The notes under the pieces are model-generated. The model saw nothing but the letters and a program-made list of their open reading frames with translations. It did not search any database and was not told where the DNA came from. Made by a program: the position numbers and the translations under genes. Positions 3,737 to 31,268 of a DNA stretch of 31,268 bases are shown here, one piece after another. The first letter of the stretch is position 1. Every line of letters starts with the position of its first letter. Source of the stretch: a virus; IMG/VR virus record IMGVR_UViG_3300032242_002427, positions 1 to 31,268 of that record; one strand, 5' to 3'.

Positions 3737-5005
3737 TCAGGCCAGTTTGCAACGTGCAAAAGCTTCACCCAGGACTGGGGAACCATCCACATATCGACGG
3801 CCGATAAAACCGATCTGGTTGGTGTCCGCGTAGCGTTCAACGAGTCGTTGAACCTGCAGATCGTCCACGTCTGCAATCCAGTAATAGCGGAGCGCTCCCA
3901 GGGCGCCGACATAAAGACCAGTGGTGAATGTGTTCGGAACCCATTCACTTTCATTCACTGGAATGTTCAAGAGCCGATCCGGAGTTCCCAGTTGTAAGCT
4001 GGGTTCCCAGAGATAACGGCCGTACGAATCTTTCAGGGTCATGATCGAATTGATCGCACTACGGGACCATAACCAGGCGAAACTGGGATCGGTTCGGTAG
4101 GGCGCTTTGATACTGTACTTCATTGCGAACAATGTATCCGCCGTAATGGCGGTGGTGGTGTTCGAGCCAGTCACGTCACGAGACGTAGGAATACCATTCG
4201 CGCTAGCTGTGAAGATTCCCAGGGGTTGGCCAGAACCGGAACCGGTCAAAAACGCCTTTTCTTCAGTCAATGCGAATTTGTAAGCCAGTTCGGTAGTAAT
4301 CAGGCTTTCGATATTGGTTGATCCGTACAACATACGAATTGACACCAGAGAAAGTTTTGAAACCAGGGAGGGGTAAAGATCCCGCCTGTTCAAAATCATT
4401 GTGGTATCTTCGGTAACGGCCTGAACTTCAGTGGTCCAGTTTGCGTCAGCCATACGCGTTGCAAGCTGGGGAATCCCCACCGCCTTGGCTTCCGCGAGTT
4501 GAACCCGCGTGGCGTTTGGCGCGCCAGTGAATGGATTCTTACGGATAAAACAGTAGTCATAAACCTGTTTCACGATTTCCTGGGCCAATTGAATGGGCAG
4601 GCTTAAATAGCCGCCTTTGCTATCCGTTCCCAAAATCGTATCTCGAAACTCTGGCGGAACCGTGGAAAGGTCCATCCGGCCACTCTGGAACCAGTTCCGA
4701 AACAGGTCCCGATATTCCTGCGAACTTCGATATTCGGCCAGGGTCTGGATTCGGCTTCCCCGAGATTCAGACAGGGGAGCGGAAACCCGTTCGCCTGGTC
4801 TGTCCAGATCCCGTTCCGCCAGTTCCATCGATTCGATCCGGCGAATGTCGCCGTTCAATTCATTCGCGGCCGCCAGAACCCGGTCCATTTCGGCCCGGTC
4901 TTCGGCAGTGGCGCCATTCTCGCGAGCCTGGGCCGCGTCCCAGGAAGAACGGGCCTGAGCAATCAGGCCGGCCCGTTTTTCCCTCAGTTCGATTGAGGTA
5001 GGCAT
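3737..5005 (-). CDS. Major capsid protein, HK97 fold
   Basis: ATG 5005 has AAAGGGAA just upstream, so I prefer it to the longer frame starting at 5062; the product is 422 residues. Residues 1-70 are charged, coiled-coil-like (IELREKRAGLIAQARSSW), as in the delta scaffold domain removed by the prohead protease. The mature part shows LGTDSKGGYLSLP, a long spine region, FLTGSGSGQPLGIF and WLWSRSAINSIMTLKDSYGRYLW, all typical of phage_capsid family proteins. It ends with a P-domain strand set and EAFARCKLA. The protease gene lies immediately upstream and the pair fits standard HK97 maturation. Confidence 0.95.
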   Translation of the reverse strand: MPTSIELREKRAGLIAQARSSWDAAQARENGATAEDRAEMDRVLAAANELNGDIRRIESMELAERDLDRPGERVSAPLSESRGSRIQTLAEYRSSQEYRDLFRNWFQSGRMDLSTVPPEFRDTILGTDSKGGYLSLPIQLAQEIVKQVYDYCFIRKNPFTGAPNATRVQLAEAKAVGIPQLATRMADANWTTEVQAVTEDTTMILNRRDLYPSLVSKLSLVSIRMLYGSTNIESLITTELAYKFALTEEKAFLTGSGSGQPLGIFTASANGIPTSRDVTGSNTTTAITADTLFAMKYSIKAPYRTDPSFAWLWSRSAINSIMTLKDSYGRYLWEPSLQLGTPDRLLNIPVNESEWVPNTFTTGLYVGALGALRYYWIADVDDLQVQRLVERYADTNQIGFIGRRYVDGSPVLGEAFARCKLA

Positions 5006-5045
5006 GTGTTCCCTTTCTAGGGGAATGGGGAAAGGCCGGCCGATT

Positions 5046-5957
5046 TTATTCGGCCGAAACAAGATCCAGCGCCGCGTGGATGGGGTCCAAACCGCGCTGG
5101 GGTAAACTCTTCCGGAATGCTTCCAGTTGTCGGATGGCCACGTCCGTGGCCGAATAGGCTGGGTACGTCACCACCGAAACATCATCCACCGCTTCAAACT
5201 GGGTAATTTCTCGAATCACGCCAGTGGGTTCAGAACGCCAGGTCTGGCCCTTGCTGGCATCCGCGGACATATAAAACCGGAAAGAACTTCCAGATATGTC
5301 CCCGCGTTGAATCGAAATCATCAGATCCCGCGCGTATTGGGTATCTGGTGGAGTGATTTCGTATTTCAAACCGCGTGAATCTTCAGAAACCTTGAGGGTT
5401 CCGGCTTTCAATCGTCCCAAAATCAAATTTTTGTCATGGTTGACTAGGGCGCGAATATCTGAACCGGCCAGGGAACTGGCAAACGCGCCAGGTCTGATCA
5501 CTTCGCGGAATCCACCCAGGTCTTCAGACATGGAATTGAACACCGCCGCGTATCCAGTAATCACTGGAACCCCGCTGGATTTGTCCACCCGGACTTCGGC
5601 CAGTGGCAAACTACGCGATTCAGCGCCACCGCGTGGCGCTGAACGGTTTGGCATTCCTGCATTCATCATGGATGGATCGGCCATGATGGACGGATTGATT
5701 CCGAGTCTACATCCACCGCGCATTTCTACCGGCTGTTCAGAGAGTTCACATTCACCGGGCGCTTCGTAGAACGTGCAACATCCACAAACGATTCCCAGTC
5801 CATTGGTGGCCGGTCCCTGGTATCCCAGGCCACCCACACCCTGAGGACTGAATGGCCCGAAGGCTTCCACAATTTCGGACAGTTCGTAGTATTGAGCCAC
5901 TTGTCTGGCCGATAGTCCGGCCATCAATTCCCGTTTGTTTTTCAAATGCTTTTTCAT
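5046..5957 (-). CDS. Prohead protease with N-terminal Cys4 extension
   Basis: Residues about 115-270 match the HK97 prohead protease family (peptidase U35/S78): GYAAVFN, REVIRPGAF, the catalytic His in LVNHD (H174) and the Ser in GDISGSSFRF (S222-S225), with later VDDVSVVTYPAY. It cleaves the capsid delta domain during maturation. The family is usually about 170-220 residues; here there are about 110 extra N-terminal residues. These carry C58, C61, C70 and C83 in a CX2CX8CX12C pattern (C60 also present) that looks like a small zinc or Fe-S site. The start overlaps the portal stop by 4 nt (ATGA). Confidence 0.9.
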   Translation of the reverse strand: MKKHLKNKRELMAGLSARQVAQYYELSEIVEAFGPFSPQGVGGLGYQGPATNGLGIVCGCCTFYEAPGECELSEQPVEMRGGCRLGINPSIMADPSMMNAGMPNRSAPRGGAESRSLPLAEVRVDKSSGVPVITGYAAVFNSMSEDLGGFREVIRPGAFASSLAGSDIRALVNHDKNLILGRLKAGTLKVSEDSRGLKYEITPPDTQYARDLMISIQRGDISGSSFRFYMSADASKGQTWRSEPTGVIREITQFEAVDDVSVVTYPAYSATDVAIRQLEAFRKSLPQRGLDPIHAALDLVSAE

Positions 5958-13171: not shown

Positions 13172-13354
13172 GGCCGGCCGGCGGAAAATGGCCTGGTCCA
13201 CCCTACGGACAAAATGACCAGATCATTCCCGCCGGCCAGAAAATCACCCATGGCCAATGAGTCCACCCAAACTAACAAAACCAAAATTCGATTCAAGTTC
13301 TAAATTAAAATTAACGTATGTTTATTTCATTTATCTAGGTATTTTTTCTATATA

Positions 13355-13370
13355 TACTATAATTATAGTA
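13355..13370. repeat. 16-bp perfect palindrome in AT-rich DNA
   Basis: TACTATAATTATAGTA reads the same on both strands, within the most AT-rich part of the gap. It may be a dimer-binding site or part of an unwinding element. Confidence 0.7.
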
Positions 13371-13385
13371 ATAAATAATAAGATA

Positions 13386-13438
13386 GAGACAGAAACAGAG
13401 AGACATTCAGAGACACCAAACCGGGGCGCATATGGGGC
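13386..13438 (+). repeat. 10-bp repeat block, copy A
   Basis: GAGACAGAAA (13386), GAGACATTCA (13400) and GAGACACCAA (13410) are followed by ACCGGGGCGCATATGGGGC (13420-13438). The block resembles copy B 250 bp downstream. Confidence 0.85.
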
Positions 13439-13629: not shown

Positions 13630-13688
13630 GAGACATTTAGAGACATTCAGAGACATTCAGAGACATCAAACCGGGGCGCATATGGGGC
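13630..13688 (+). repeat. 10-bp repeat block, copy B
   Basis: Four exactly spaced units, GAGACATTTA, GAGACATTCA, GAGACATTCA and GAGACATCAA, start at 13630, 13640, 13650 and 13660. They are followed by the same 19-bp sequence as copy A, which has CATATG at its centre. Confidence 0.9.
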
Positions 13689-13875: not shown

Positions 13876-13931
13876 AAAAAAATGTCCTCAGATTTCCTCA
13901 AAACAGTGAGGAAATCTGAGGACATTTTTTT
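13876..13931. terminator. Perfect 25-bp-stem hairpin flanked by A7/T7
   Basis: Bases 13876-13900 pair perfectly with 13907-13931 around a 6-nt loop (AAACAG). The stem starts with seven A and ends with seven T, so it would act as an intrinsic terminator in both directions. It would separate transcription from the 14259-14776 unit and from the plus-strand gene at 12752. The stem is much longer than most terminators. Confidence 0.8.
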
Positions 13932-14011: not shown

Positions 14012-14250
14012 GGGACAGTTGGGACAGTTGGTATAGTTGAACTCTAAAACCAATTATATCAAGGGTTTCCAACTGTACCGATCAACTGTACCAGTGGACC
14101 AAACAAAAAAAATTGGGACAGTTGAACCGAGTGGGTCCAACTGTCCCGATCAATCAACTGTACCGATTATGTCAAAACCGCTGGTACAGTTGTAAACCGT
14201 TATTGTGAAACGGTTTCAAGATCAACTGTACCAACTGTTTCAAGTGTACC
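14012..14250. repeat. Cluster of twelve GGKACAGTTG/CAACTGTMCC motifs
   Basis: Plus-orientation copies (GGGACAGTTG or close) start at 14012, 14021, 14030, 14115 and 14183. Inverse copies (CAACTGTACC or close) start at 14070, 14083, 14138, 14155, 14223, 14232 and 14241. The left end is a triple array with 9-bp spacing and the right end is the same triple inverted, so the whole is roughly mirror-symmetric. 14115-14147 is a 10-bp inverted pair with a 13-bp spacer. These may be iterons for the replication protein, integrase arm sites or a partition site. Confidence 0.85.
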
Positions 14251-14258
14251 AGAGAGAG

Positions 14259-14504
14259 TCAGGGGGCCGGTTTTGGAGCTTTCAATAGCTTCCTGAGTTT
14301 TGCGGCCAGGTCCGGCCCCACCAGCGGTTCAATGGGCCAGGACAAATCCACCGCATATTGAACCAATAGAGTCCACTGGGGTTCCCTGTGGCCAGTTTCG
14401 ATCTGGGAAACCATGCTTGGGGTAATTCCCAGACGTTTAGCCACCGTGGCCTGGGATAGCCCAGAGGAAACTCTCTGGGCTTTGAATCGGTTGGCAAAAT
14501 CCAT
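14259..14504 (-). CDS. XRE-family HTH regulator
   Basis: From ATG 14504 (TGATG overlap with the upstream stop, GGGAGA at proper spacing) the product is 81 residues. Residues about 4-58 form a classic XRE domain: FKAQRVSSGLSQATVAKRLGITPSMVSQIETGHREPQWTLLVQYA. A short basic tail (KLRKLLKAPKPAP) follows and there is no peptidase or sensor domain. It is cotranscribed with the 14504-14776 gene from a promoter packed with 11-bp palindromes, its likely operators. It may be an antitoxin-like or second lysogeny regulator. Confidence 0.85.
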   Translation of the reverse strand: MDFANRFKAQRVSSGLSQATVAKRLGITPSMVSQIETGHREPQWTLLVQYAVDLSWPIEPLVGPDLAAKLRKLLKAPKPAP

Positions 14505-14776
14505 CACCATTCTCCCGGCACTTTGAAAACGCGAATATAGGATTCGTGGATATCTTCGAGTTCTGCAAAATCTGACAGGGTTTTACTGTCCACTTCCACC
14601 ACGTCCAAACCCTCTCGAAACCAATCCGCGGCCGAACTTTTCATGTTGTTGAGTTGATCGAGTTCCCCACCCTGAAACCGTTTGATCACTCGGCCATCGA
14701 CAATTTTGACCGCTTCCACGTCTGAACCATCGGTCCAGATCTGGTAAACCCCGTTCTGAATGTCTTTTGCGCTCAT
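14504..14776 (-). CDS. Hypothetical protein preceding the XRE regulator, 90 aa
   Basis: The product starts MSAKDIQNGVYQIWTDGSDVEAVKIVDGRVIKRF, a small beta-rich start, and continues with helical acidic segments (NNMKSSAADWFREGL, LSDFAELEDIHESYI). AGAGAG lies 6 nt before the ATG. I recognise no family. The pairing with an XRE gene and a self-regulated promoter suggests a two-gene regulatory or toxin-antitoxin-like unit, but no toxin motif is visible. Confidence 0.65.
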   Translation of the reverse strand: MSAKDIQNGVYQIWTDGSDVEAVKIVDGRVIKRFQGGELDQLNNMKSSAADWFREGLDVVEVDSKTLSDFAELEDIHESYIRVFKVPGEW

Positions 14777-14832: not shown

Positions 14833-14860
14833 ACTATAGCCTAGCTATTTTTATAGTCAA
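14833..14860 (-). promoter_or_regulatory. Sigma-70-like promoter TTGACT-N16-TATAGT
   Basis: On the minus strand -35 TTGACT is at 14860-14855 and -10 TATAGT at 14838-14833, the best promoter match I found. It drives the 14776-14259 unit with a leader of about 50 nt. One 11-bp palindrome (14837-14847) overlaps the -10 edge and spacer, and another (14861-14871) abuts the -35. Confidence 0.75.
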
Positions 14861-14949
14861 TAGCTTAGCTATATTTTTATTGCAAAAAAATATAGCTAAG
14901 CTAATTTCCCCAGATTTACCCAAAAAAATTGGGTATATTAGCTTAGCTA
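14837..14949. promoter_or_regulatory. Four operator palindromes TAGCTWAGCTA
   Basis: TAGCCTAGCTA (14837, one mismatch), TAGCTTAGCTA (14861), TAGCTAAGCTA (14893) and TAGCTTAGCTA (14939) are 11-bp palindromes about the central base. Two flank the promoter and two lie upstream toward the integrase gene. They are the expected binding sites of the XRE protein encoded just downstream. Confidence 0.75.
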
Positions 14950-14973: not shown

Positions 14974-16152
14974 TCATTTCGGCCCTTCCAGAACTTTCCT
15001 TCCCGCCTCATTCACCGAATCCGAATCCAGATGGGTATAACGGTCCATTGTCAGGGTAATCTTGCTATGTCGGGCCAACATTTGAACCTGTTTCACTGGC
15101 AAGCCAGACGAAACCAGATGGGTAATGAACGAATGTCGAAGCGCGTGGAAATCCAGGACTCCGCCGGCCTGGTCCACGATGGGAAGTCCGGCCAGTTTGA
15201 GATCTTCCTGCAGCATTCGAGCCGTTCGTTCCGGTAGATACCAAATCGGGCCAGTTGGTGGTTTTTTGGTCAGATAGATTTCCAGGACCGCGGCCAGGTC
15301 CTGGGGAAGCGGTTGGAGATCATCCAGACCAGACCGCTTTCCCCGTTTGCTGGCCGAAGCTGGGAGTCTGATCAGTGGTCCCTCAGTATGATCCAGCATG
15401 AAATCCGGTCGAGTCAGGGCGCGAATTTCGCCGGCCCGGAACCCCGTAGCCATCGCCAGTTGATAAACCATGGCCCTGTCTGATCCTGTGAGCCATTGTT
15501 GCGCCTGGGATCGGTTCCCGAGTAGGGTTCGGGCCGTACACATTCGCCGGCCACGTTGGGCCACCACCGCCACCAGATTTTTGATTTCGGCCCACGTCAG
15601 AACCCCGCGAACCCGGCGCCGATCCGATTCCGGCGGATACGGCCGGATCTTCTGGAGTCCCCTGGGAAGATCCAGAATCAAACTGGCATCCCAGGCCCAG
15701 TTCAGGAACCCCAGAACCGCGGCCCTGGAATAGTTCGCGGTCCTGGCTGATTTGGTTTTTCTGAGTTCGGCCAGTCCACATTGGATTGAATCGGCCGATA
15801 GGTTCGCCAGGGTTTCAATGCGGGACAACAAAAACAAACGTGAGACGGCCGCTATCTGGTTTTGGGAATGTTTGACCGCGGCCCCCCTGGCCACGATCAC
15901 CTGGCCCCACCGGTTTAGATGTTCTCGAATTGCCTGGGTTCGGGCCGTTCTGGATTTGACCAGATCCGAAGATATCAAACCTTCCCGGATGGCCTTGCAT
16001 TCATCGTCCTTTTTCTGGGCCAGGGCCAGGGATTGCGCGCGGTCCCTGAACCCTGTTCCCCACCGCCGCTTTCCGGTTTCGTCCATCCACCAGATCACCC
16101 AGACGGCCCCCCTGGTTTTCGATTCCCCTGTTCGTTTCCGAACCCCAGGCAT
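14974..16152 (-). CDS. int: Tyrosine-family integrase
   Basis: The 392-residue protein has all catalytic residues: R239 (ATGFRAGEIR), K269 (SASKRGKRS), H336 and R339 (FHALRHSF), H362 (ARHSKITLTMDRY) and Y372. The N-terminal 60 residues include a WVIWWMDETGKRRWGTGF strand pair, a common arm-binding or AP2-like start, followed by a core-binding domain to about residue 170. It integrates the phage genome into the host chromosome. The gene is last in the early minus-strand operon, 15 nt after a zinc-ribbon protein, so excision and integration may respond to early transcription. Confidence 0.95.
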   Translation of the reverse strand: MPGVRKRTGESKTRGAVWVIWWMDETGKRRWGTGFRDRAQSLALAQKKDDECKAIREGLISSDLVKSRTARTQAIREHLNRWGQVIVARGAAVKHSQNQIAAVSRLFLLSRIETLANLSADSIQCGLAELRKTKSARTANYSRAAVLGFLNWAWDASLILDLPRGLQKIRPYPPESDRRRVRGVLTWAEIKNLVAVVAQRGRRMCTARTLLGNRSQAQQWLTGSDRAMVYQLAMATGFRAGEIRALTRPDFMLDHTEGPLIRLPASASKRGKRSGLDDLQPLPQDLAAVLEIYLTKKPPTGPIWYLPERTARMLQEDLKLAGLPIVDQAGGVLDFHALRHSFITHLVSSGLPVKQVQMLARHSKITLTMDRYTHLDSDSVNEAGRKVLEGPK

Positions 16153-17228: not shown

Positions 17229-17705
17229 TCATTGTCCGTTTCTCATCTGAAATTCTGGCCGTAGTTTCCGTAGGGTTTTCCACTGGCGAACGTATCGGTC
17301 AACAATGGACTGAGTGGTTCCGGCCGTGGTGATTTCGCAATTGATCTTGTATCCTTCCCACTGGGGTTCAGGCCCCAGAACAGACTTGGAAACCATGGGT
17401 TCTGGTAGCGTCAGAACCCTGGATTTTTCCGGCGGTTCCGGTTTGATCCGTTTCGAGCTTTCGTATCTTCGCCGTTCGGACTTTTGAGATTTGTGTTTGG
17501 CCACTTCGCGGGCCATGTCAAACCAGTTGATCAGGCAGAACCGAAACGAACCGTTGTTGATATTGGTTCGGCCCTGGGTTCTTACATGGCCCGCCTGAAT
17601 CCACTGTCGAATCTGGTGGTATGGTGTTCCAAATTTGAACCGGGCCAGACGAGCTTCCCCGTATCCGTTTTGGACATATACTGGTTTGTTTTTGGTTTCA
17701 ATCAT
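17229..17705 (-). CDS. Putative DNA-binding accessory protein, 158 aa
   Basis: ATG 17705 follows AAAGGGGAAAC and overlaps the upstream TGA (ATGA). Residues about 17-60 (EARLARFKFGTPYHQIRQWIQAGHVRTQGRTNINNGSFRFCLINWFDMA) look like a winged or MerR-type HTH with the gene's own basic linker behind it (KHKSQKSERRRYESSKRIK). The C-terminus has a helical pattern with SIVDRYVRQWKTLRKL. No precise family is recognised. Confidence 0.6.
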   Translation of the reverse strand: MIETKNKPVYVQNGYGEARLARFKFGTPYHQIRQWIQAGHVRTQGRTNINNGSFRFCLINWFDMAREVAKHKSQKSERRRYESSKRIKPEPPEKSRVLTLPEPMVSKSVLGPEPQWEGYKINCEITTAGTTQSIVDRYVRQWKTLRKLRPEFQMRNGQ

Positions 17706-17881
17706 CGTTTCCCCTTTCTGGTTTCTTGCAAATCACCACTGGCCCATCGGGCCACGTCCTGAATCCGCCACCGTTTGTTCCCCACCTTTCTGGACACTGG
17801 TGGACCCATTCCCAGAGCCACCCACCGGTCCAGGGTTCGCGTGGATATCCCCAGGTAATCCGCCACCATGGCCCTGTTCAT
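17702..17881 (-). CDS. Excisionase-like HTH_17 protein
   Basis: ATG 17881 overlaps the resolvase stop by one base (TGATG). A longer frame to 17983 would only overprint the resolvase gene. The 59-residue product MNRAMVADYLGISTRTLDRW...GPPVSRKVGNKRWRIQDVARWASG is a complete HTH_17/AlpA-type winged domain, as in excisionases and phage regulators. Presence in the same operon as integrase makes an excision-directing role plausible. Confidence 0.75.
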   Translation of the reverse strand: MNRAMVADYLGISTRTLDRWVALGMGPPVSRKVGNKRWRIQDVARWASGDLQETRKGKR

Positions 17882-18480
17882 CAGGACCGCTTTGTTTTGG
17901 TCCTGGCCCTGGATTTGGCCTGGTGCCTTTTGTGTCCCATGCGTTGGCATTTCTGTTCCCATTTCATTTTTTGATACCACCAATCACCCAGACCCACCGC
18001 GTCCGCCGCATCCAATCCTGGATCTTTGTTTTGATGAAAAAAATCCTGATAAATTGGGTAAACCGAACTCATTCGAATGGCCCGGAGCGTTTTGGGAATT
18101 CCGCCGGTCCAGTCCGATTCCAGGACTGGTTCCCAGGGAACTTCCAGGGTTTCGAGAATCCCGATCTGAAAACCCTGGGAATGGCCCAATGTCATCAATC
18201 CGCCCAGTGAAAACCGCGACGATTTCACCGCGCGTTTTGCGTGGCGGTAATTGCTCGCCACTTCCACCAGTACGGCCTGGAACGGTCCCAGTTTGGTCTG
18301 GGTCTGGCGAACCCAGACCGCCAGGTTTCTGGCCAGATAAGTAGTCCGGCGCCAGGAATCCCAGTGGCCTGGGACCGTGAAAACACCACATTCCAGAAGG
18401 GTTCCGTTCTGAAATATGGCCCATCCCGTGGCGCTTGAACTGGGGTCCAGGGCCAAAACTAGGCCGTTCCCGGCCGTCAT
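17881..18480 (-). CDS. RuvC-like Holliday junction resolvase
   Basis: The 199-residue protein carries the RuvC-fold acidic residues: D12 in LALDPSSSATGWAIF, a Glu in AVLVEVASNYR, and the Asp pair in GLDAADAVGLGDWW. The C-terminus is strongly basic (KRHQAKSRARTKTKRS). It should resolve branched DNA before packaging. The gene overlaps its upstream neighbour by 4 nt (ATGA). Confidence 0.85.
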   Translation of the reverse strand: MTAGNGLVLALDPSSSATGWAIFQNGTLLECGVFTVPGHWDSWRRTTYLARNLAVWVRQTQTKLGPFQAVLVEVASNYRHAKRAVKSSRFSLGGLMTLGHSQGFQIGILETLEVPWEPVLESDWTGGIPKTLRAIRMSSVYPIYQDFFHQNKDPGLDAADAVGLGDWWYQKMKWEQKCQRMGHKRHQAKSRARTKTKRS

Positions 18481-18836
18481 GGTTTCACCTGTTTTTCTTT
18501 CGCTAAACGCTGTTCATTGGCAATTTCGAACACAAGTCGGCCCAGATACCACTGGGCCTTTCTGGCGTTCTCAAGCGCGGAATCTTTGGATTCCATTCGC
18601 CAGACATATTTCAAAATTGTTCCACGCAGGAACGCGCGGAATTCTTTGGGGTCCATCATGGCCCGGATAGCTTCGATGGCTTCAATTCCGCGGCCCTTGT
18701 AATGGTCCGGATGATTCACAGAATCCTGGCCAGGCCGTTTCTGTTCTAGGGCCAGGGATTCACATTCTTCCAGAACCGCTTTCATGGCTTCCCCACCCAG
18801 GCCATCGGGAATCCATTTCAATTTTTCTTCAATCAT
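18477..18836 (-). CDS. DUF3310 family protein
   Basis: The 119-residue product has the DUF3310 core: VNHPDHYKGRGIEAIEAIRAMMDPKEFRAFLRGTILKYVWRMESKD...ENARKAQWYLGRLVFE. The family is widespread in phages beside replication genes and is sometimes annotated as nucleotide kinase or SaV-like, without firm function. The N-terminal 38 residues are an extra helical segment. The start overlaps csrA by 8 nt. Confidence 0.85.
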   Translation of the reverse strand: MIEEKLKWIPDGLGGEAMKAVLEECESLALEQKRPGQDSVNHPDHYKGRGIEAIEAIRAMMDPKEFRAFLRGTILKYVWRMESKDSALENARKAQWYLGRLVFEIANEQRLAKEKQVKP

Positions 18837-19011
18837 CTGTGTTTTTGTTTCCTTTCGAGAGAAGTTCCTTCCGCAAAATCTTCACGGTTTCCGGGGCTTT
18901 GATTCCCACCCGAATTCCCCGATGAGAAGAATTCAGGATTTTGATTTCAATGGGTCCATCATTTGTAAACAAGATAATGGATTGATCTAAATTTCGTCCT
19001 AGAACCAGCAT
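18829..19011 (-). CDS. csrA: CsrA-family RNA-binding translational regulator
   Basis: The 60-residue product MLVLGRNLDQSIILF...HRGIRVGIKAPETVKILRKELL aligns with CsrA over its full length. It keeps the MLxLxR start (R6), the RVGIxAP core and the C-terminal strand-helix with the Arg equivalent to R44. CsrA dimers bind GGA motifs in mRNA leaders and block or stabilise translation. The gene's own leader has AAGGA and AGGGA before the ATG, so autoregulation is possible. It lies in the early operon between primase-helicase and DUF3310. Phage-borne CsrA may remodel host metabolism or time phage gene expression; that is inference. Confidence 0.9.
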   Translation of the reverse strand: MLVLGRNLDQSIILFTNDGPIEIKILNSSHRGIRVGIKAPETVKILRKELLSKGNKNTDD

Positions 19012-19035: not shown

Positions 19036-21252
19036 CTAAAACGCGCTCAATGGCGGATCGGACAGTTCCGTCCGCTGTTCCACTGGGGGCCACCCTGGGA
19101 GCGCTTCCCAAACCCACTTAGTCCCCTCTTTTCGGGGTTTAATGGGTAAAACTTTCTTCGCTTCCCAGAGTCCATTCCTGGAAATCCCCTGGGAATGGGC
19201 CAGAACTTCCAGCGCTTCCGATGGCCAGGAACGCGATTCCGAAAACTTCTGGATCAGGAACTGGCCGGCCAGTTCCTTCCTGGGAACCCTGGCCCCACCA
19301 GTGGTTCCCCCCATGGCTTCGTCCGCCGTGGTCGTTATTTCCCCATGCCATTTCACAATGGTCTGGCCTGGGCAATCATCTTCAATGGAGTAGGACAAGC
19401 CGCGGGCCAATGGTCCCAGATTATTTTTCTTGGTCACAAAAACCCGTTTTTTTGGGTCGTCTGGATCTTCCGCGCAAAAATGAATCACCCTGGCCGTGGT
19501 GGTATAGGCCACCGATCCCATGATCCTCATGGATGCATCACCAGAACGCCCCGTGGTTGGTTTGTTGACGTGCGTAATCAAAACCACCGCCACTTTTTTC
19601 CTTTGTTGCATCCAGTCATTGATTCGCGTCAACAAAGCCCGAACTTCCGCGTTCCGGTGTTCGTCGGCTTTCCCGAGAAAATTGGCCGGCGGATCAATAA
19701 TCACCAGTTCCGGTTGGCCGGCTTCAATCCAGGCCCTGTCCAGGGTTTCCACGTCCGCCATGGTCCATGTGGCCATGGCTTTCACGGTCATTCCACAAAC
19801 CCGATCAAGATCGGCCCCCATGTCCAGGAGCCGGGGCGCCAGAACCTGTTCATAGGGATCTTCAGAGAGGATCAGGACTCGGCCAGGATCGAGTGGAAAT
19901 CCGTCTGGCGCTGGAATTCCCCTGGTCAGACATGCCGCGAAACTGGAGAGACAGAACGATTTCCCCACACCGGTACTACCGGCCACAATGGTGATAAACC
20001 CGAAGGGAATTCGATTTTGCCATAGGTAATCCACCGAACTGATTTTGATTTCCGAAAATTTCACCACCAGCGGTTCTGGCGTTTCGCCTGGGGCCTGGCC
20101 CGTCACCTGGGCCACGTTTTGAACCTGGCCAGTGGCCAATGGTTTCAGGGTGCCCGGTAAGGTCCTGGGTTCCTGGGAACCTGATTCAATTCCCGAACGT
20201 ATGGTCGCTTCAATTTCATGCGCGTTCAAACCGGCTTTCTGTCCGGCCAGGGTCAGGGCTTGAACCGCGTCCATCTGGTTCAAACCATGGGCCACTAATG
20301 TCCCCAAGGAAAACGCGGCCCTGTTCAGGGATTTGTTTCGTTCTCCTTCCGGGGCCAGTTCCACCCTGGCTGTTTCCCTGGCCAGAGCAGATTTCAAATA
20401 GGCTTCCAGGGCCAGGGGAGCCGAACCGCCGGCCCGCATGATCCAGGGGTTCAGTGGTTCGATTTCTCTGGGTTCCGGTCTGGAATCGGTTTGGTTTGCT
20501 GGTTCGGTTGCTGGCGGTTTGAGTCTGGCGGTAGTTTCCTGGATCAGATCCAGGGAAACGATTTCCAGCGTTTCGGGACAGGACAGAACCAGAACCGGCC
20601 GATGGGGCCTGTCACCTGTTCCCGGCCCCTTCCGATTCCAGGAGCCTGGAACACGGGCCATTTGTTGGGCGCCGAATAGATCGTTTTCGATCCGGACAGT
20701 GGCCGTGGAAAATACTTCCGAGATGGCCCGCAAAAACTTGGAACAGTGGGCCTTGATCAGTTCGTTTGATGGTAAGGAAATCCGATAGAACAGATGAATT
20801 CCCGAACCGGAATCAATAATCAAAGGTGGGGGCCATCCCAGATCAGATAGAAATTCATCGACGGCCCAGGCCAGGTTCCTGGCCAGATCCTTTTCCTCTT
20901 CCGTGGCGGAAACCCCATCGGGCCGGATGGGGTCAACATCCAGAAACATCCATCGACGTTCGGCCGGATCATTTTTACGGATCGAGTGGTTCAAGGGGGC
21001 CAAAACAGGGTTCACGCTCCAGAACAGATTTTGACAGTGGGCCAATTGGCGCGCCGCGTCGATCGATTCTTCGGGCCGCTGGGCCTGAACCCACCGAATC
21101 CCAAACGGTTCCAGACCGCGCAGTTCATGCCATCCGGAAGGGTCACAAAACGCGGCCAGGGCCGTTTGAAATTGTGTGATATCCAGGCCAGTTCCCTGGC
21201 CTGAATTCCCTTCCACCCGTTGAATCCATATCGGAAACATGCAAACCCCCAT
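19036..21252 (-). CDS. Primase-helicase (AEP primase plus RepA-like AAA ATPase)
   Basis: The 738-residue protein is a fusion. Residues about 1-240 look like an archaeo-eukaryotic primase domain: FLDVDP (D105, D107), DSGSGIHLFYR (147-157), D191 and WNRKG. Residues about 280-360 are a helical linker of PriCT type (IEATIRSGIESG). Residues 400-640 are a RecA/RepA-like ATPase: Walker A GSTGVGKS (425-432), Walker B LVIID (516-520), and VVLITHVNKP. The C-terminus (660-738) is a winged-helix-like region. It is the main replication initiator candidate and might bind the repeats at 14012-14250. Start ATG 21252 has AGGGAC upstream; ATG 21240 is also possible. Confidence 0.85.
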   Translation of the reverse strand: MGVCMFPIWIQRVEGNSGQGTGLDITQFQTALAAFCDPSGWHELRGLEPFGIRWVQAQRPEESIDAARQLAHCQNLFWSVNPVLAPLNHSIRKNDPAERRWMFLDVDPIRPDGVSATEEEKDLARNLAWAVDEFLSDLGWPPPLIIDSGSGIHLFYRISLPSNELIKAHCSKFLRAISEVFSTATVRIENDLFGAQQMARVPGSWNRKGPGTGDRPHRPVLVLSCPETLEIVSLDLIQETTARLKPPATEPANQTDSRPEPREIEPLNPWIMRAGGSAPLALEAYLKSALARETARVELAPEGERNKSLNRAAFSLGTLVAHGLNQMDAVQALTLAGQKAGLNAHEIEATIRSGIESGSQEPRTLPGTLKPLATGQVQNVAQVTGQAPGETPEPLVVKFSEIKISSVDYLWQNRIPFGFITIVAGSTGVGKSFCLSSFAACLTRGIPAPDGFPLDPGRVLILSEDPYEQVLAPRLLDMGADLDRVCGMTVKAMATWTMADVETLDRAWIEAGQPELVIIDPPANFLGKADEHRNAEVRALLTRINDWMQQRKKVAVVLITHVNKPTTGRSGDASMRIMGSVAYTTTARVIHFCAEDPDDPKKRVFVTKKNNLGPLARGLSYSIEDDCPGQTIVKWHGEITTTADEAMGGTTGGARVPRKELAGQFLIQKFSESRSWPSEALEVLAHSQGISRNGLWEAKKVLPIKPRKEGTKWVWEALPGWPPVEQRTELSDPPLSAF

Positions 21253-25516: not shown

Positions 25517-26166
25517 GGACAGGGGGCCAAAGAAACGTTTTTGGCGAGGTAATTAAAATACATATAGAGTTGACTGGATGTTGGGCATATACACGTTGAA
25601 CCAGATTTAACAACTGTACCACCCCCATAATTCGCCGATGTACCACCATCCGCGCCCCAAAAAATTCGATTGCCAAACGAAAACGGGGAACATGATATTT
25701 TTAATAATCTTCCATAAGGTCTTTCATCAAAGATATATGAATTTGTTCCATGGTTCCAGGTAATACTATATTCCAGATATTGAGTAGATGAGCTTGAAGT
25801 AAAACCGCCCGCAGTACATGATACACTGATAGAACAGTCTGTCCACCATCCTGTCACAAAATAACGTGATGGCCTTCCAGAATTCCACCACCCCTGTGGA
25901 TCGGATGCATAAGGACCGCTTACATAAAATAGCGCTAATGGGTTTGAAACGAATGAACCGGTCCAGGAACATTTATTACTGGCCAGAGACAGGTTCACAT
26001 GGGCCGTAGATATTTGGCAATCCGTAACAGTTCCATTTGATAAGGTAACAGACGGATAATCAAAACTGATCATAATGCAAGATGGGGGCGCACATGTTTG
26101 ACAGTTCAAGCAAGCCGGAACTGAAACACAACATGGACACCCAGGATTTCCGATTTTGAAACTCAT
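25513..26166 (-). CDS. Cys-rich, beta-rich tail-region protein
   Basis: ATG 26166 forms ATGA with the previous stop, so the apparent extension to 26193 is dropped; the product is 217 residues. The N-terminus is dense in cysteine (GNPGCPCCVSVPACLNCQTCAPPSC, about residues 7-30). A long Ser/Thr/Tyr/Asn-rich beta region follows, and it ends CICPTSSQLYMYFNYLAKN. I recall similar GNPGCPCC-type starts in planctomycete phage tail regions. A host-contact or tail-tip role is inferred from position. Confidence 0.65.
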   Translation of the reverse strand: MSFKIGNPGCPCCVSVPACLNCQTCAPPSCIMISFDYPSVTLSNGTVTDCQISTAHVNLSLASNKCSWTGSFVSNPLALFYVSGPYASDPQGWWNSGRPSRYFVTGWWTDCSISVSCTAGGFTSSSSTQYLEYSITWNHGTNSYIFDERPYGRLLKISCSPFSFGNRIFWGADGGTSANYGGGTVVKSGSTCICPTSSQLYMYFNYLAKNVSLAPCP

Positions 26167-30546: not shown

Positions 30547-31268
30547 TCAGTTGGGTTTGTATCTGAGTTCGTAATTCACGGTAGCGAGTCTGGCCGGTTT
30601 TCCGGAACCGTCCCCCAGGTCCACCAGATCCAGCGTGGTTCCGTTGTAGGTTGATTCGGCCACCCATACGCCATTCGATCCACCCAGGAACCGCGTGGAT
30701 GGGTCCAGGACCGTTTGAACCTGGCTGATCAGGGATTTCCTTTCAGCGCTGGATCTGGTCAAAACATCGACGGACACCGTAGCCGTAACGTTTGATCCCG
30801 CGCCGGTTAACCAGTAGGTTTGAGATTCTTCCCCCACCGAGTAAACCAAGAATGGCATGACGGCACTGGCCGGCGCAATTTCTTCATAGATTCGCGGTCC
30901 AATGGCCTGAACCAGATTCTGGTTTGCGCGAAGTGCGGCGACTACGGATTCTTCCAGGGTCAGTTTTCCGGCCGTGGATATCTGGGCCGTAGAGGCCACC
31001 AGAATGGAATCCAGAGAAATGGCCCCACTGGCCAGGACAGATCCCGAACCGGTTCCAGTAACCAGGACAGATCCCAGAGAAATCGAACCGGTGGCACTGG
31101 TGGCCGCTGGGGTTCCTGGGGTCACTCTTCCAGTGGCCAGGACAGATCCCAGAGAAATCGAACCAGTGGCACTGGTGGCCGCTGGGGTTCCTGGGGTCAC
31201 TCTTCCAGTGGCCAGGACAGATCCCAGAGAAATCGAACCCGTGGCACTGGTGGCCGCTGGGGTTCCTG
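30547..31268 (-). CDS. Tail terminator-like protein (DUF3168), main part
   Basis: This is the continuation of the gene begun at 284. Residues about 175-320 form the DUF3168 domain: ESVVAALRANQNLVQAIGPRIYEEIAPASAVMPFLVYSVGEESQTYW, TVSVDVLTRSSAERKSLISQVQTVLD and TVNYELRYKPN. The domain closes the tail tube at the head-proximal end. The family is usually about 120-140 residues, so more than 150 N-terminal residues, including four to five 25-residue repeats, are extra. The stop is 18 nt before the major tail protein start. Confidence 0.85.
   Translation of the reverse strand, partial: GTPAATSATGSISLGSVLATGRVTPGTPAATSATGSISLGSVLATGRVTPGTPAATSATGSISLGSVLVTGTGSGSVLASGAISLDSILVASTAQISTAGKLTLEESVVAALRANQNLVQAIGPRIYEEIAPASAVMPFLVYSVGEESQTYWLTGAGSNVTATVSVDVLTRSSAERKSLISQVQTVLDPSTRFLGGSNGVWVAESTYNGTTLDLVDLGDGSGKPARLATVNYELRYKPN
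31076..31268. repeat. 75-bp tandem repeat, second part
   Basis: Units begin at 31076, 31151 and 31226 and continue as the array at 1-178 once the circle is closed. A degenerate shorter unit lies just before, near 31013-31075. Confidence 0.95.

Follow-up and report, generated by a model that had tools for sequence, protein, structure and literature searches.

A cluster of opposed GGKACAGTTG repeats as the probable replication origin of a temperate phage encoding an AAA_25 primase-helicase

The origin repeats of P4 are bound by the winged helix of its alpha protein, with unwinding and priming following (PMC4234260). The SaPI replication proteins Rep and Cch2 employ a C-terminal domain to recognise iterons located downstream of their gene (PMC7581432). 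The organisation of PICI origins has been described, for these satellites, as one that no other known bacterial replicon shares (PMC6092414). Here, we describe a repeat cluster in an IMG/VR virus record of 31,268 bases, the whole of which was analysed and is referred to as the window. Among the products of this window are a capsid protein, a large terminase, a UvrD-type helicase and two XRE proteins; Table 1 lists the gene of one XRE protein together with further genes. The phage is temperate and, having its own capsid and terminase genes, is a full phage and not a satellite. The record starts (1-170) and stops (31011-31268) within one tandem-repeat gene that contains a 43-bp end repeat and, because both ends fall in this gene, the phage genome may be circular, the repeat having collapsed in assembly.

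A number of other features surround the cluster. A perfect 25-bp hairpin (13876-13931), with A and T runs on either side, is likely to be a two-way transcription terminator. Between 13385 and 13690, a 40-bp sequence is present twice, at 13399 and at 13649, with 98% identity between the copies; both are headed by 10-bp tandem AGAGACATTC units, and this repeat region, which is separate from the iterons, could be a candidate attP or arm-site region. Four TAGCTWAGCTA palindromes (14837-14949; three exact, where shuffles expect 0.01) precede a 90-aa ORF and the XRE gene, and have the appearance of operators through which a toxin-antitoxin-like pair would regulate itself. Immediately after the primase-helicase gene, the phage encodes a 60-aa CsrA-family regulator (18829-19011).

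The cluster is composed of twelve GGKACAGTTG sites in 239 bp, nine exact and three degenerate, which bears out the count given in the original prediction, a reading of the sequence alone. With up to one mismatch allowed, 11 sites are found in these 239 bp, far above the maximum of 2 observed in 1,000 order-2 resamplings of the window, and the only exact GGKACAGTTG outside the cluster is at position 25611. Read along the cluster, the sites comprise three + sites (spaced 9 and 9 bp), an interval of 40 bp and two - sites (13 bp apart), then single +, - and - sites and, finally, a + site followed after 40 bp by three - sites (9 and 9 bp). The opposed, 9-bp-spaced end triples, both of which face inward, and the central inverted pair (14115+/14138-) were all found where they had been predicted, whilst the proposed mirror symmetry takes the form of a 68-nt inverted repeat, 74% complementary, formed by the two arms. 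In each arm, two sites face inward, towards each other, at a distance of exactly 40 bp (14030+ to 14070-; 14183+ to 14223-). The spacers enclosed by these pairs are 67-70% AT, compared with 47.5% for the genome, and that of the right arm contains a perfect 8-7-8 inverted repeat, AAACCGTT-7bp-AACGGTTT (14194-14216). The cluster was also correctly placed downstream of genes, since it stops 8 bp short of the stop codon of a - strand XRE gene.

Table 1. Coordinates of the repeat cluster, its parts and associated genes in the window
Feature	Position	Strand	Remarks
Iteron cluster, probable replication origin	14012..14250	.	12 GGKACAGTTG sites
Exact GGKACAGTTG sites	14012+, 14021+, 14070-, 14083-, 14115+, 14138-, 14155-, 14183+, 14223-		n=9
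Degenerate GGKACAGTTG sites	14030+, 14241-, 14232-		1, 1 and 2 mismatches, respectively
Left arm	14012..14079	+	three + sites (14012, 14021, 14030), 30-bp spacer, facing - site 14070
Left spacer, possible melting site	14040..14069	.	70% AT; putative role
Middle sites	14083..14164	.	14083-, 14115+, 14138-, 14155-
Right arm	14183..14250	-	+ site 14183, 30-bp spacer, three - sites (14223, 14232, 14241) at 9-bp spacing
Right spacer	14193..14222	.	67% AT; putative role
Possible unwinding element	13286..13385	.	84% AT, most AT-rich 100 bp of the genome; 630 bp from cluster; putative role
XRE gene	14259-14510	-	stop codon 8 bp from cluster
Tyrosine integrase	14974-16152		724 bp from cluster
Possible Xis	17702-17983
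AAA_25 primase-helicase, proposed initiator	19036..21252	-	738 aa
C-terminal part of primase-helicase, predicted winged helix	19039..19335	-	proposed iteron reader; putative DNA binding

A scan of IMG/VR for the tandem GGKACAGTTG motif returned 22 contigs. In 17 of these, a primase-helicase gene has its 3' end within ~75 bp of the motif, although contigs of one lineage are not independent and the 17 represent about three lineages, because fifteen belong to a single VapE-type lineage; the others are L010, which encodes an AAA_25+PriCT_2 protein, and L022. The raw number of matches was rejected as evidence, as a scrambled motif with the same 9-bp tandem spacing matched more contigs (106). However, a primase-helicase was present at none of the 80 loci returned for this control, so that only the position beside primase-helicases is informative. 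The same repeats are thus found elsewhere with a homologous primase-helicase, in L022, and with another AAA_25 protein, in L010. On these sequence comparisons, the motif is one that tracks primase-helicases, not integrases. AAA_25 relatives from gut phages and plasmids (L072-L077) had no clear iterons beside the gene in the stretch examined, and single-sequence searches of IMG/VR found no close relatives of the window integrase and primase-helicase. Pattern matches were also seen in Pelagibacter and Chitinophaga, as motif counts only.

L022 is the one close match to the cluster in IMG/VR, with 15 sites in a similar mirrored layout. Its end arms are arranged as in the window (three + sites at 9 and 9 bp, 40 bp, then two - sites 13 bp apart; at the other end a + site, 40 bp, and three - sites at 9 and 9 bp) and form 82-nt inverted repeats that are 80% complementary. 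Across IMG/VR, the pattern of a single arm (a row, then a 30-bp spacer and a facing site) matched the window and L022 only, with two copies in each. When the tandem rows and the strands were kept constant, the other gaps of the two clusters agreed at no more than a borderline level (p 0.07-0.08), and the shared geometry is therefore suggestive; the motif and the partner gene common to both weigh more. In L022, the 3' end of a primase-helicase gene runs into the cluster, and the encoded protein shares 35% identity with the window primase-helicase over 716 aligned positions.

The association of repeats with this gene was also evaluated at 24 Planctomycetota loci that encode the C-terminal part of a homologue of the primase-helicase, using an 8-mer repeat test (p <= 0.01) on a 300-bp stretch starting shortly before the conserved match ends, as the iterons overlap the gene end in L022. 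Significantly repeated 8-mers were present at the gene end of 12 of the 24 homologues, compared with 0/24 mid-gene, 0/24 farther downstream and 1/24 upstream, and the repeat families differ between lineages. A first version of the test, measured strictly from the stop codon, was significant for 3/24, because the repeats often start before the stop codon, as they do in L022. The genomes sampled were exclusively from Planctomycetota, picked after a pattern match there (L029). Although the window integrase and primase-helicase have relatives in this phylum, these do not show the host, as it is the sole phylum sampled. In L029, a Planctomycetaceae contig, positions 467-916 hold a GGTAAAGTTG site cluster between 102-bp direct repeats that contain a tRNA-Leu 3' end, a region that resembles a tiny integrated element with no genes and with iteron-like or arm-like sites.

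Structure prediction of the C-terminal 99 residues of the primase-helicase, together with the L022 counterpart, gave a winged-helix topology with a core pLDDT near 88. The best solved-structure matches listed are mostly winged-helix DNA-binding proteins, with E-values that are non-significant on their own. The fold prediction for the full-length protein was of too low quality for use.

Taken from sequence comparison and prediction, the cluster is very probably the replication origin of the phage, or the main initiator-binding part of it. This agrees with the original prediction, which listed iterons for the primase-helicase among its candidates, a possibility now supported by the comparison across phages (L022; 17/22 contigs). 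In the mechanism that we propose, the AAA_25 primase-helicase would bind the iterons via its C-terminal winged helix and assemble as a ring on each of the two arms. Once loaded, it would melt the AT-rich spacers and start, and probably also prime, replication, perhaps in both directions. Counting against an origin, 4.8 kb of other genes separate the cluster from the primase-helicase gene, and the integrase is nearer (724 bp); no repeats were found directly 3' of the primase-helicase gene in the window. Nevertheless, such a distance is no bar to origin function, because the origin of pRN1 remains functional after being moved (PMC4234260). GC skew, which had been put forward as a check, gave no origin signal along the window and is uninformative here, as nearly all genes lie on one strand.

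The main rival to a replication origin is an attP, because of the nearby integrase gene and the perfect 8-7-8 repeat in the right spacer. Here, the sites would be arm-type sites of the tyrosine integrase, arranged around the core-like repeat at 14194-14216 and split into attL and attR on integration. Direct rows of candidate arm sites do flank this repeat on both sides, in L029 related GGTAAAGTTG sites are flanked by duplicated 3' ends of tRNA-Leu and, in P4, attP and crr adjoin each other. Considered first, on the basis of integrase proximity and the 8-7-8 repeat, attP was dropped as the main reading after the tests on L022 and on integrase homologues. In the 39.8-kb L022 record, the cluster (~4828-5097) sits at the primase-helicase gene, far from the only integrase domain found (37265-37714), and such a cluster is present within 1.5 kb at 0/30 of the best Planctomycetota integrase homologues; in neither comparison do the sites travel with the integrase gene. 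The placement of the tandem motif at primase-helicase genes in the 17 contigs also argues against attP, as does the separate repeat pair at 13399/13649, which could itself serve this role. Moreover, the 8-7-8 repeat arises in 17/100 shuffles at <=3 mismatches and is absent from L022. The arm-site candidate of the original prediction is thus disfavoured, and we consider attP unlikely.

A regulatory array, with operators for the adjoining XRE protein or another phage repressor, is less probable again, despite the 8 bp that separate the cluster from the XRE stop codon and the two XRE proteins encoded by the phage. The operon has the cluster at its 3' end, a search within the cluster for promoter-like sites gave none, and elsewhere the motif accompanies primase-helicases. 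The short operon that ends in the XRE gene already has a different repeated palindrome, the four TAGCTWAGCTA copies, at its own promoter region, in keeping with the earlier remark that the cluster is not a simple promoter operator. Least probable of all, and only barely credible, is a role in partition, with the cluster as the centromere-like site of a plasmid-like prophage. Such sites typically contain arrays of short repeats, and winged-helix folds occur among some centromere-binding proteins. However, no ParA- or ParB-type protein was found among the Pfam-scanned window proteins, which cover part of the ORFs. The phage also has an integrase gene, and it is to primase-helicases that the comparison across phages ties the cluster; this earlier candidate has no positive support.

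As a probable primase-helicase origin, the cluster can be set beside several characterised systems. It resembles the crr and ori of P4, whose record annotates type 1 repeats beside alpha (crr) and again at ori, in that these repeats form GG-led rows 9-11 bp apart that are opposed across 43 bp (40 bp in the window); the opposed repeats are also present in two copies, beside the alpha primase-helicase gene, and are bound by alpha via a winged helix. In contrast, the P4 repeat is GGTGAACA, its orientation across the gap is reversed relative to the window, alpha has another type of both primase and helicase than the AAA_25 protein, and P4 requires crr together with a second ori ~2 kb beyond the start of alpha. 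The pRN1 origin also belongs with a prim-pol/helicase, ORF904, that has a winged helix at its C-terminus, and is movable (PMC4234260), but is a stem-loop and not a set of iterons. In PICIs and SaPIs, two iteron sets flank AT-rich DNA and are read by the replication protein, Rep or Pri-Rep (PMC6092414, PMC7581432). The window shares with the P4 and PICI systems opposed sets of short repeats, an AT-rich stretch and the occurrence of the repeats with a homologous primase-helicase elsewhere. However, a PICI origin is found immediately 3' of its initiator gene, whereas 4.8 kb separate the window cluster from the primase-helicase gene, and the cluster is part of a full phage that has an AAA_25 motor, not of a satellite that lacks capsid and terminase genes. 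The cluster probably belongs to the primase-helicase iteron-origin kind and is not a PICI origin.

Opposed rows of 9-10 bp are also found at the end of the primase-helicase gene in VapE-type prophages, APSE-1 and the Yersinia phage YeP4. One enterobacterial lineage has GGTACAGTTG, and the repeats of APSE-1 and YeP4 differ in sequence from GGKACAGTTG but have the same kind of opposed layout. These elements differ from the window in their VapE-type motor and in having rows that point away from the AT-rich gap. A further, rather doubtful possibility is that one GGKACAGTTG recognition sequence in 9-bp rows serves the origins of both VapE-type and AAA_25-type primase-helicases, either because the winged-helix reader domain is exchanged between replication proteins together with its iterons or because the reader is a host factor common to these phages; if true, PICI-type origins would be a widespread, exchangeable phage module. 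This analysis places a probable origin in a phage whose replication has not been studied and ties it to a testable initiator, and it offers a simple rule for locating phage origins, namely to seek opposed repeats, specific to the lineage, immediately beyond the primase-helicase gene. As far as can be judged from sequence, these comparisons indicate that full temperate phages, with at least two motor types among them, also carry opposed iteron sets where the primase-helicase gene ends, and the statement that this organisation is confined to PICIs (PMC6092414) may consequently need to be widened.
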